From NCBI GenBank assembly GCA_947649495.1, contig CANSRU010000007.1, positions 1 to 64,000 on the forward strand: a stretch of DNA of 64,000 nucleotides, given 5' to 3'. Under the pieces are notes generated by a model, which saw only the letters and a program-made list of their open reading frames with translations, was not told the origin of the DNA and made no database searches. This stretch comes from an uncultured Porphyromonadaceae bacterium (GTDB lineage: Bacteria > Bacteroidota > Bacteroidia > Bacteroidales > Muribaculaceae). Both the position numbers and the translations under genes were made by a program. Below, one piece after another: positions 5,545 to 8,464 of this stretch (position 1 is the stretch's first letter; each line of letters begins with the position of its first letter).

Positions 5545-5916
5545 TTATTCCATGAAAACGAGATATACGGCGGCTATCAGAAAACAGAAAGCCAGGATGT
5601 GATTCCATTGAAGTTTGAACCCATCGAATGCCCATAGGCTGAAGATTACGAAAACCACAAGTGTTATCACCTCCTGCATCACTTTCAGCTGCATTATGGA
5701 AAATGGACCGCCATTTCCTTCAAAGCCTATGCGGTTGGCGGGAACCTGAAAGCAATATTCGAGCAAGGCTATGCCCCACGACATAAGTATTACTCCATAC
5801 AGCGGCCAGTTTGTCGATATACCCGATGACGATAGTTTCAGATGTCCGTACCAGGCAAATGTCATAAAAACGTTCGACGCTATAAGGAGCAAAAATGTGA
5901 GCAATGCTGAGTTCAT
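5545..5916 (-). CDS. DUF486 / DMT-superfamily small membrane protein
   Basis: A 123-residue protein with four predicted transmembrane helices and the conserved centre of the DUF486 family (Trp-Gly-Ile-Ala-Leu-x-Glu-Tyr, then PANRIG). The family belongs to the drug/metabolite transporter superfamily and has half-size members that probably dimerise; no substrate is established. It converges on the GH3 fusion with only 4 nt between the stops. A possible minus-strand -7 element (plus-strand CAAAATTA, 5964-5971) lies upstream without a clear -33 partner. Confidence 0.85.
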   Translation of the reverse strand: MNSALLTFLLLIASNVFMTFAWYGHLKLSSSGISTNWPLYGVILMSWGIALLEYCFQVPANRIGFEGNGGPFSIMQLKVMQEVITLVVFVIFSLWAFDGFKLQWNHILAFCFLIAAVYLVFME

Positions 5917-6017
5917 AACCTGATTCCTGTTTTATTTTTGTGATGGGTTATTTTTTACGGCCACAAAATTACTCAAACATATCCATTCGATAAAATATAA
6001 ACTTTGATTGAATTTTA

Positions 6018-6049
6018 TTTGTATATATAAATGCATGGTTGTATATTTG
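6018..6049 (+). promoter_or_regulatory. Promoter of the trp leader/trpB unit
   Basis: TTTG at 6018-6021 and TATATTTG at 6042-6049 match the Bacteroidetes -33 and -7 elements at 20-nt spacing. Transcription should begin a few bases later, just ahead of the leader-peptide ATG at 6071. Confidence 0.75.
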
Positions 6050-6070
6050 CTGCATAGATTATAGCAAGAT

Positions 6071-6151
6071 ATGAATTTTGGCATAAATATTCAATATTGG
6101 TGGCGCTCCTGCTGTTTATCACGGTGGGATTCCGCTATATGTATGCTATAG
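6071..6151 (+). CDS. Putative Trp leader peptide (trpL-type, 26 aa)
   Basis: A 26-codon reading frame (ATG 6071, TAG 6149-6151) sits between the promoter and an attenuator hairpin in front of trpB. It has three Trp codons: two in tandem at 6098-6103 (residues 10-11, context Tyr-Trp-Trp-Arg) and one at 6125-6127. Trp is rare, so a tandem pair in so short a frame at this place is the classic mark of a ribosome-mediated attenuator. The third Trp codon falls inside the downstream pairing segment. It is too short to have a product function; its translation is the sensor. That the leader is translated is inferred. Confidence 0.8.
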   Translation: MNFGINIQYWWRSCCLSRWDSAICML

Positions 6152-6220
6152 TGAGGATGTAAATAATTATCAGCTCAAATATCGGCCATCGTGATTTTTG
6201 TTCACGGTGGTTTTTTATTT
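6119..6220 (+). promoter_or_regulatory. Tryptophan attenuator (mutually exclusive antiterminator and terminator)
   Basis: The 9-mer TCACGGTGG occurs twice, at 6119-6127 and 6202-6210, and each copy can pair with the single segment CCATCGTGA at 6186-6194 (one G-U pair). Pairing with the downstream copy makes a 9-bp hairpin with a 7-nt loop, followed by six Ts and ATTTT, which is an intrinsic terminator. Pairing with the upstream copy makes the antiterminator. A ribosome stalled at the tandem Trp codons (6098-6103) would leave the upstream copy free and allow readthrough; one that reaches the stop codon would cover it and permit termination. A weaker pairing of 6108-6115 with 6123-6130 could be the 1:2 stem. 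Confidence 0.8.
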
Positions 6221-6239
6221 TATATAAAAACGTTTTAGT

Positions 6240-7460
6240 ATGTTGCATTACGATTTGACAAACCGGCTGCCGGTTGATGTAGATGGATTCTATGGTAATT
6301 TTGGCGGTGCGTTTATTCCCGAGGAATTGAAAGCCGTTGTACGCAGGCTTGATGCGGAGTATAGGAAATGTATATCCGATAAGGAATTTTTATCAGAGTT
6401 CGATCGTCTTATGCACGAGTATGTAGGACGCCCAACGCCACTCTATCGTGCGGATAATCTAAGCCGGAAATATGGAGCTGAGATATATCTTAAGCGCGAG
6501 GATTTATGTCACACAGGTGCACATAAGATAAATAATGCCATAGGCCTCGGGCTTATGGCAAAGCGTATGGGGAAAAAGAAAGTGATAGCTGAAACCGGAG
6601 CCGGACAGCATGGGGTGGCCACCGCTACTGTGGCGGCATTGCTTGGTCTGGAATGTGATGTGTATATGGGAGCTGAGGATATAAGGAGACAGCAGCCCAA
6701 TGTCGCGCGCATGCGCATGCTCGGAGCCAGGGTCGTTTCAGTTGAAAATGGAAATGCTACATTGAACAATGCCGTTGATGCAGCATTGGCAGCGTGGTGT
6801 TCCGATGCCGATAACGCATTCTATCTGATAGGGAGTGCCGTCGGGCCCCATCCTTATCCCGAAATGGTTGCGAGATTCCAGTCGGTGATAAGTTTTGAGA
6901 TAGCCCGTCAGCTTGAGGAATCTACCGGCCGGCGATATCCCGATTATGTGATTGCTGCCATTGGTGGTGGAAGTAATGCTGCAGGCGCATTCTATCATTT
7001 TATTGACACACCGGGTGTAAAACTCGTTGGAGTGGAGGCGGCCGGAAAGGGGATAGATACCGATATGTCGGCCGCATCTCTTTCTCTCGGGTATGAGAAG
7101 GTGCTGCATGGAGCGAGAACTATGGTTTTAGCTGATGATAACGGCAATGTTCAGGAAGCTTATTCCATATCGGCGGGTCTGGATTATCCCGGTATCGGTC
7201 CGTTGCATGCCTATCTGTCGTCGGCCGGTAAGATGGATGTTCTTGCGGTGACCGATTCTATGGCGCTAAACGCAGCCTTCGAGTTGACACGTAGCGAGGG
7301 GATAATTCCGGCGTTGGAGAGTTCGCATGCTATTGCCGCTCTCGAAATGATGAGGTTTAAGCCGGATGATATTGTCGTTGTCAACCTCTCAGGGCGCGGA
7401 GATAAAGACATGTCGACCTATATGGGAGCTTTGGAAAGTCAGATTCTTGACAAAATGTAG
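6240..7460 (+). CDS. trpB: Tryptophan synthase beta chain
   Basis: PLP-dependent subunit that condenses indole with L-serine to form L-tryptophan. The 406-residue length and N-terminus match TrpB1 (GYYGNFGG-type motif at 17-23). Lys96 in HTGAHKINN is the Schiff-base lysine; the phosphate-binding glycine-rich loop GGGSNAAG and the C-terminal SGRGDKDM motif are intact. The gene is preceded by a promoter and a Trp attenuator, so it should be repressed when charged tRNA-Trp is plentiful. It is alone: no trpA or other trp gene follows, and the next gene converges on it with a 22-nt overlap of the coding ends. Confidence 0.97.
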   Translation: MLHYDLTNRLPVDVDGFYGNFGGAFIPEELKAVVRRLDAEYRKCISDKEFLSEFDRLMHEYVGRPTPLYRADNLSRKYGAEIYLKREDLCHTGAHKINNAIGLGLMAKRMGKKKVIAETGAGQHGVATATVAALLGLECDVYMGAEDIRRQQPNVARMRMLGARVVSVENGNATLNNAVDAALAAWCSDADNAFYLIGSAVGPHPYPEMVARFQSVISFEIARQLEESTGRRYPDYVIAAIGGGSNAAGAFYHFIDTPGVKLVGVEAAGKGIDTDMSAASLSLGYEKVLHGARTMVLADDNGNVQEAYSISAGLDYPGIGPLHAYLSSAGKMDVLAVTDSMALNAAFELTRSEGIIPALESSHAIAALEMMRFKPDDIVVVNLSGRGDKDMSTYMGALESQILDKM

Positions 7461-8464
7461 TCAACGGCAAAATCCAGAATCGTGTCGTGATGGTTCAGAT
7501 AGTCGGTATCTTTCATATCTATGGCGCATCCCTCGGTAGGTTCGACGCCGAATTCGGTACATGTACCGTTGGCATCGAGAATCGGGCATGCTGAGAAACG
7601 TATGCCCCATCCATTGGGCAGTTCTGAACTGAACGGCATACCGCTTCCTCCGCCGGTTGTGGCTCCGATAACCGCTACACCCGGAATCAGTTTCATTATA
7701 GATACAAAATTATTCGCTGCACTGAATGTGCTCCGGTTGGCGAGCACCACTACCGGTCTATTGCCCCATGTCAGATGTCCGGCACCTATGGGGTCTATAT
7801 AATAGGCATACGGTTCATCAAAGTCATTGTGCCCCGGACCGGTTTTGTGGATGATGTATCCGGCAAGTATACGCTTGTCGATAAATCTGTTTACCAATTC
7901 ATCAACGTTGGTTAGATTTCCCCCGCCATTATCGCGCACATCGATAATAAGGCCTGAGGCCGACTTGAAATACGACATGATGTAATCTACATTTCCGCTT
8001 CCGAGTCCACCCTCGAAAGTAGAGTAGTGCATGTATCCGATGTTTTGTGTCAGGAATCCATAGTCCACCGCACCGAGCGAGAGATAGTTGAAGTTAAAGT
8101 AATATTGCTGTATCAGACGGGCATCGTAATTCTGCGGATAGTCGCTCCACCATTTCCGGTAATACGATGAAGCGAATGGTGTTGACAGATTGGTGTGGCC
8201 GTCGCGCAGTTCATCAAGCATTTCAGAACAAAGATTGAAGAAGTCGTTCTGATTCATTGACGGTGAGACCTTAGCCGAATATTTCAGATAAACTTCATGC
8301 CAATCCACATCTTTTTCCTTAAAAAAGCAGTAATGTTCGTCAAGTATTGTCCATAACGCATCAAAATTACCTTTACGGTTATTGTCGAATTCATCGATTT
8401 TGTGGCACGCCTCAAGCGATAAGAGCGCGATTATGGAGATGATGATTAAGTATGCAGTCCGCAT
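7439..8464 (-). CDS. S41-family peptidase lipoprotein
   Basis: A 341-residue exported protein whose lipobox cysteine is residue 20 (LSLEAC). The tricorn/C-terminal-processing-protease core has DVRDNGGGN at 176-183 and the nucleophile Ser248 in STFSAAN. There is no evident PDZ domain. The family cleaves peptides or misfolded proteins in the cell envelope; the natural substrate is unknown. It is the last of three minus-strand genes (parC, DUF3316 protein, this gene) spaced by 20 and 11 nt, and it overlaps the 3' end of trpB by 22 nt on the other strand. Confidence 0.85.
   Translation of the reverse strand: MRTAYLIIISIIALLSLEACHKIDEFDNNRKGNFDALWTILDEHYCFFKEKDVDWHEVYLKYSAKVSPSMNQNDFFNLCSEMLDELRDGHTNLSTPFASSYYRKWWSDYPQNYDARLIQQYYFNFNYLSLGAVDYGFLTQNIGYMHYSTFEGGLGSGNVDYIMSYFKSASGLIIDVRDNGGGNLTNVDELVNRFIDKRILAGYIIHKTGPGHNDFDEPYAYYIDPIGAGHLTWGNRPVVVLANRSTFSAANNFVSIMKLIPGVAVIGATTGGGSGMPFSSELPNGWGIRFSACPILDANGTCTEFGVEPTEGCAIDMKDTDYLNHHDTILDFAVDYILSRI

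Follow-up and report, generated by a model that had tools for sequence, protein, structure and literature searches.

In Escherichia coli, the leader of the trp operon encodes a short peptide in which two tandem Trp codons are followed by an Arg codon; its RNA pairs alternatively as 1:2, 2:3 and 3:4, and a terminator lies before the first structural gene. Attenuators in the Bacteroidetes/Chlorobi are said to have been predicted by Vitreschak et al. in 2004. A structured element of this kind, Bacteroid-trp (RF01692), appears as a Bacteroidetes cis-regulatory motif in Table 1 of Weinberg et al. 2010 (PMC2864571), and carries the Rfam description 'Bacteroidete tryptophan peptide leader RNA'; it is also taken up in the accessible text of PMC6414381, where it is likened to the element of E. 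coli. A preliminary description of the locus studied here held that such attenuators are little described in this phylum, a view contradicted by these three sources, at least in the parts of the two papers that are accessible. Signs of leader-peptide attenuation 5' of amino-acid operons are given in the accessible part of PMC9723704, and short ORFs resembling leader peptides are reported for Bacteroides thetaiotaomicron in that of PMC7366714, with trp not among them there.

According to the accessible text of PMC11085991, the TrpB of Bifidobacterium can use external indole. Among the papers listed in a search of the literature on orphan or stand-alone trpB, indole salvage and trpB of the Muribaculaceae, which did not extend to most subscription journals, none dealt with a solitary trpB controlled by Trp attenuation in the Muribaculaceae. 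The window analysed here is a stretch of 64,000 nucleotides (contig CANSRU010000007.1, forward strand) from an uncultured Porphyromonadaceae bacterium placed in the Muribaculaceae. It is very probable, in our judgment, that a lone trpB in this window is controlled by a ribosome-mediated trp attenuator of classical design, and that its product most likely makes tryptophan from serine and the indole of neighbours, being switched on at Trp shortage.

The leader upstream of trpB and its alternative pairings

The leader region is flanked by a divergent ORF of 123 residues on the minus strand (5545-5916), for which no NCBIfam match was found, and by trpB (6240-7460); the leader features named below and trpB lie on the plus strand. 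A promoter-like site of the Bacteroidetes type (6018-6049), with TTTG at 6018-6021 and TATATTTG at 6042-6049, was read off the sequence, and it fits the -33/-7 type of Bacteroidetes promoters. In 51 of 62 relatives, TAnnTTTG is found no more than 60 bases 5' of the start codon of the leader, as against 117 of 3100 shuffles, which accords with the promoter claimed earlier; a generic sigma-70 scan did not have the site among its matches. The leader ORF (6071-6151) has 26 codons, encodes MNFGINIQYWWRSCCLSRWDSAICML followed by a stop codon at 6149, and contains TGGTGG, the proposed stall (sensor) site, at 6098-6103.

Everything that a classical trp attenuator comprises is there: four segments and the 1:2, 2:3 and 3:4 pairings between them. 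A 9-mer, TCACGGTGG, occurs twice, at 6119-6127 and 6202-6210, and CCATCGTGA at 6186-6194 is the partner of either copy, with one G.U pair in each duplex. Segment 2 (6119-6129) pairs through 6119-6127 with segment 3 (6185-6194) to form an antiterminator, and through 6121-6129 with segment 1 (6107-6115), the anti-antiterminator, with a fold of -9.6 kcal/mol. Segment 3 is common to the antiterminator and the terminator, and segment 4 (6202-6211) is the 3' arm of an intrinsic terminator, found by a terminator scan as a hairpin at 6184-6212 (-15.3 kcal/mol). TTTTTT stands directly 3' of the 3:4 hairpin, the T run starting at 6211 and the U tract, TTTTTTATTT, extending from 6211 to 6220. Mutually exclusive antiterminator and terminator structures with one common strand are thus present by sequence, folds, covariation and the swap test. 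The leader with its tandem Trp codons, both copies of the 9-mer with their common complement, and the T tract had been named in the preliminary description and were found as given there; its 2:3 and 3:4 pairings stand as well, while the third pairing, 1:2, had been missed.

A single further TGG, at 6125-6127, had been counted among the Trp codons of the leader. The triplet is present, but it lies within segment 2, and no more than 28 of 62 leaders of the family have an extra Trp within 10 codons past the tandem. Were a ribosome to halt at 6125-6127, the antiterminator would be blocked; this TGG appears better explained by base pairing than as a sensor codon.

Folds of successive lengths of the leader were computed along with its anatomy. 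The free leader up to 6215 folds into 1:2 plus 3:4, and the stretch from 6115 to 6200, that is, the RNA freed by a stalled ribosome before segment 4 is made, folds into the 2:3 antiterminator. From 6115 to 6215, 3:4 forms even with segment 1 hidden. Since 3:4 wins once segment 4 is included, the switch must act during transcription, with antitermination winning kinetically. Stalling and termination are what we infer from these pairings. With charged tRNA-Trp in ample supply, the ribosome would pass 6098-6103 and go on to the stop codon; segments 1 and 2 would pair behind it, leaving segment 3 to segment 4, and transcription would end near 6212-6220. With charged tRNA-Trp scarce, the ribosome would stall on the tandem Trp codons and cover segment 1, whereupon segment 2 would pair with segment 3, no terminator would form and trpB would be transcribed. 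The stop codon lies downstream of segment 2, so that a ribosome at the stop, unlike its counterpart in E. coli, would leave this segment uncovered and termination must rely on 1:2 reforming.

Conservation and species-specific pairing in relatives

Relatives were drawn from the genus (34 genomes, 15 of which have trpB at at least 61% identity) and from the family (198 genomes with 64 trpB genes); with an overlap of 10, the two draws give 69 trpB genes. TGGTGG is found in the leader of all 15 genus loci, while the surrounding leader sequence drifts. A short ORF with tandem Trp codons lies within 500 bases 5' of trpB in 62 of the 69, compared with 16 of 1380 shuffled regions. The Trp codons are therefore conserved both in the genus and in the wider set, as the preliminary description had proposed to check. 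Among the 68 trpB genes whose upstream stretch is long enough, six show no tandem-Trp leader in the sequence available (G039, G044, G058, G086, G140 and G197), and all six belong to genomes that have trpA; a seventh, G121, has just 69 upstream bases. Five leaders (L033, L034, L035, L037 and L056) read W-R-W-W, with three Trp codons (e.g., MQNICINIQSWRWWR...), and stand at a greater distance from trpB. About 240 bases 5' of trpB at L041 (Duncaniella sp.), a leader-like ORF, MKQNASYYLRWRRF..., has only one Trp where the tandem would stand, and is perhaps a decayed attenuator.

Covariation was scored on a MAFFT alignment of the sequences from the 15 genus loci, which was left unadjusted, and the structure was taken from two rows of it. 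Of 500 shuffles, 1, 0 and 8 had covariation scores at least as high for 1:2, 2:3 and 3:4, respectively, and 1, 1 and 6 had at least as many doubly changed cells. Pairs changed on both sides numbered 7, 7 and 6, and as many or more were seen in 79, 34 and 46 of 500 shuffles, so that this count carries little weight alone. Pairing cells amounted to only 66, 59 and 68% of the 15-row alignment; sliding the 2:3 partner by one column left 59.4% of cells pairing, as against 59.1% unslid, and sliding 3:4 by -3 gave 9 doubly changed pairs instead of 6, yet a lower score.

A swap test, for which no alignment is needed, is the better one; in it, the segment-2 region of each leader is paired with the terminator arm of every species. 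In a set of 27 loci, own pairings averaged -16.0 kcal/mol and swapped pairings -12.8, and none of 20,000 permutations, uncorrected for kinship here and in the sets that follow, was as good. This set was what remained of 36 loci after nine were dropped, namely L035, L052, a near-copy, two duplicates and four loci in which leader or terminator was unusable; L045 was retained despite a misplaced terminator, and its own pairing came last of the 27. A leader's own arm took first rank in just 4 of the 27 loci, which is explained by a core (GGCGG/CCGCC or GATGG/CCATC) that the species have in common. Among all 62 leaders, where the terminator rule was permissive (62 of 62 pass), own pairings averaged -15.7 and swapped pairings -11.4 kcal/mol (0 of 20,000 permutations as good), and 61 of 62 own pairings reached -9 or below; under a stricter rule, the best upstream hairpin fell between leader and trpB in 52 of 62. 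For the 15 loci without trpA, the values were -17.3 and -11.8, again with 0 of 20,000 permutations as good, and all 15 own pairings were at or below -9. The compensatory changes proposed as a check are hence seen both in the alignment and in the swap tests, and the logic of trp attenuation claimed for the locus is supported by conserved tandem Trp codons together with species-specific pairing.

The folding of the 183-nucleotide leader has a z score of -2.8. It is scarcely credible that leader ORF and hairpin arose by chance, or that the hairpin merely terminates some upstream transcript: short ORFs are common in AT-rich intergenic DNA (of 508 pieces of the window, each 509 bases long, 18 contain one with tandem Trp codons), the terminator-like site at 6184-6212 is not unusual alone (one site per 2.1 kb, as against a shuffle mean of 1.6) and a covariance model built from the family (R1, see below) also matches plain terminators at other loci, but TGGTGG in frame with an ATG, which arose in 54 of 3000 dinucleotide shuffles of 6057-6239, was joined by a terminator in none of them, the adjoining ORF (5545-5916) is on the opposite strand, and the same design with species-specific pairing precedes 62 of 69 trpB genes.

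A terminator that alternates with an antiterminator is likewise found in riboswitches, T-boxes and protein-bound attenuators, and the short ORF might be incidental to one of these. We regard this as very unlikely. No riboswitch or T-box was matched by Rfam at the gathering level in the whole window, where a tRNA was the only match, nor up to E = 10 within 5940-6300. TGGTGG is invariant at 15 of 15 genus loci amid drift, and in 17 of 27 loci the 2:3 duplex starts 20-23 bases after the first base of the tandem, as the footprint of a ribosome would require.

Relation to known trp leader elements

The best Rfam match within 5940-6300 was Trp_leader (RF00513), with 19.3 bits (E 0.17) as against a cut-off of 41 bits; this is too weak, and filing the element under RF00513 was rejected. 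In its design, the element resembles the trp leader of E. coli, with tandem Trp codons followed by Arg, the 1:2/2:3/3:4 logic and a terminator before the first structural gene. It differs in that it would control trpB rather than trpE, and in that its leader stop codon lies past segment 2.

Its nearer counterpart is Bacteroid-trp, which is likewise found in Bacteroidota and likewise has a short leader with tandem Trp codons and a terminator with a U tract before trpB; the window element differs in a sequence that has drifted out of the Rfam model and in a lone trpB as the downstream gene. The covariance model of RF01692 has no match in the window, in the genome it comes from or, at E <= 0.001, in the 198 family genomes; when 20 family loci were scanned with it at a lax threshold, one (L183) reached 40 bits as against the cut-off of 49 bits. 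Among 198 genomes of the order, it matches 16 at E <= 0.001, with 10 above the gathering cut-off. A leader ORF with tandem Trp codons was found at 15 of these 16 loci by script and at L130 by eye. Downstream, trpB follows within about 300 bases of the leader at 12 of 16 and about 1000 bases on at L130; it was not found 3' of the leaders at L124, which is cut by a contig end, L126 and L132. The last two are Bacteroid-trp leaders with tandem Trp codons and no trpB in the 1.5 kb downstream.

The model R1 was built from family leaders (alignment A5), with L002, L003 and L005 excluded because these lone-trpB leaders could not be aligned with the others in A4. In the genus, R1 gives 12 matches below E = 1e-6, all of them trpB leaders, and it misses the three leaders that were kept out of A5 (in G018, G021 and G031); four weaker genus matches that were examined (L197-L200) have no tandem-Trp leader. 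From a set comprising 15 RF01692 loci and L052, with L124 left out here as in one survey of the RF01692 loci, R1 re-finds 15 of 16 with E values of 0.003 or less and the remaining one with 0.075, partly through the common TGGTGG plus terminator. Ten further matches in the order were examined, and only L202 and L206 are real leaders, of an intermediate type and before trpB. R1 has matches in 53 of 198 genomes, a figure that is not a count of attenuators. Because R1 also matches plain terminators, common descent with RF01692 is likely, not proved. As an attenuator, the window element belongs, in diverged form, to a type already known from the Bacteroidota.

The solitary trpB and its enzyme

The product of trpB (6240-7460) scores 562 bits against TIGR00263, where the curated cut-off is 392, and is so recognized as the beta subunit of tryptophan synthase. 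The preliminary description had correctly named the gene 3' of the attenuator but overlooked that it stands alone in its genome. The gene absences were computed for a genome that is 99.98% complete in 34 contigs, with searches for trpA, trpC, trpE and tryptophanase. Neither trpA nor trpC has a match in the window's genome, although they were found in 10 and 9 of 34 genus genomes, respectively. Matches of trpE grade (E below 1e-100) occur in 9 of the 34, and the best match in the window's own genome is 4.5e-8. There is then no trpA partner in the genome with which an alpha-beta tryptophan synthase could be formed, and, judging by these searches, most of the tryptophan pathway seems to be gone from this bacterium.

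In the family draw, trpA is present in 53 of 198 genomes and missing from 13 of 64 genomes with trpB; together with two from the genus draw, this gives 15 trpB genes without trpA, and all 15 keep the tandem-Trp leader. None of the 15 has trpE as the next gene, as opposed to 26 of 26 loci with trpA for which 1500 downstream bases are available, a count that includes the query's own source (28 other trpA-bearing loci had too little sequence). In the window, a convergent gene for an S41-type peptidase (7439-8464, minus strand) overlaps the 3' end of trpB at 7439-7460, and such a gene lies downstream of trpB in all 6 genus genomes with a lone trpB. A second, TrpB2-like gene (31-35% identity) is found in 7 of 9 genus genomes with the operon and in 0 of 6 with a lone trpB.

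Perhaps the missing genes merely lie in gaps of the assembly, which is in 34 contigs, and many assemblies of relatives are fragmentary; moreover, trpD, trpF and trpG were outside the searches. This seems highly improbable in view of the completeness of 99.98% and the joint absence of trpA, trpC and a trpE-grade match. In addition, trpE is not next to trpB although 1500 downstream bases are present, five sister genomes have the same gene absences and the same S41-type peptidase gene downstream, and most of the lone TrpB proteins fall in one clade.

That clade was found in a tree computed from 68 family TrpB proteins and three outgroups (the fragmentary G173 was left out of both the tree and the residue comparison). 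With a support of 100/100, it unites 13 of the 15 TrpB proteins without TrpA, which come from seven genera, whereas G045 and G156 are placed among operon TrpBs. Some of the seven genera also contain genomes of the operon type, so that inheritance with differential loss or transfer between genera could each account for the distribution. The PLP lysine is present in all 71 TrpB rows, and the clade keeps it together with H86, E109 and Q114 in 13 of 13 (numbering is anchored at the PLP lysine as 87 and is approximate elsewhere). Operon and outgroup TrpB have 239 columns conserved at 85% or more; at 18 of these columns, no more than 4 of the 13 clade members keep the residue, and seven of the 18 lie at 167-179 and seven at 278-295. 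K167 and R175, two columns chosen after the comparison, are found in 56 of 56 operon and outgroup proteins and in 0 of 13 of the clade; G045 and G156 keep K167 and both have Asn instead of R175. We take K167 and R175 to be contacts with TrpA. If so, the clade shows the combination to be expected of an enzyme that works without TrpA, with such contacts lost and the catalytic residues retained. The accessible text of PMC11917138 places two residues of an ancestral TrpB, 279 and 280, at the alpha-beta interface; they fall near, though not necessarily within, the second cluster of lost columns (278-295).

One lone trpB of the family, that of G152 (locus L182), has its leader at 382, a trpB match at 601-1725 and, on the same strand, trpS at 1845-2957, which begins 120 bases past the end of the trpB match and forms another link to Trp. 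This trpB has a frame shift near its 3' end and a long branch in the tree, and may be decaying or misassembled.

The most serious alternative is that the attenuator is real and that the lone TrpB performs some other chemistry (e.g., serine deamination), the switch being a relic. TrpA is missing, the residues that we take to be its contacts are altered, the trpB of G152 is frame-shifted near its end, and the TrpB activity considered here is a prediction from sequence. We nonetheless consider a relic switch unlikely, since all 15 trpB genes without trpA keep both the tandem Trp codons and the pairing despite base turnover, the catalytic residues are retained in the lone TrpB clade, and trpS is the next gene after trpB in G152. 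A Trp-sensing switch kept on a solitary trpB argues that the product still affects the supply of Trp. As to the substrate, the search for indole-making enzymes covered tryptophanase only and gave no match in the window's genome, so that indole would come from neighbours.

Such a salvage would resemble the use of external indole in Bifidobacterium, where TrpB is fused with TrpC (PMC11085991, accessible text), unlike the window's genome, in which no trpC is detected. Similarly, the TrpB of Pelodictyon luteolum can act without TrpA, as we propose for the window TrpB, but that organism also has TrpA (PMC11917138, accessible text), whereas the window's genome has neither trpA nor trpC at a detectable level. 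Both cases, as described in the accessible parts of these papers, further differ from the window trpB in that the latter has a Trp attenuator.

With somewhat less assurance than we have for the attenuator itself, we think it probable that the Muribaculaceae hold a distinct and old TrpA-independent lineage of TrpB, which would have shed its contacts with TrpA while keeping its own charged-tRNA-Trp attenuator through base turnover, and that auxotrophs of the family switch on the salvage of neighbours' indole when Trp is short. With this attenuator, the range of an element already known from the Bacteroidota comes to include a family unseen by Rfam's model; the attenuator is in itself of moderate interest, and its solitary-trpB context is the more useful part. 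If the proposal is true, the retained switch amounts to sequence-only evidence that a lone TrpB still makes tryptophan, and a regulatory RNA would reveal the function of an orphan enzyme. An abundant gut family would then have members that depend on the indole of others and carry a built-in gauge of Trp hunger.
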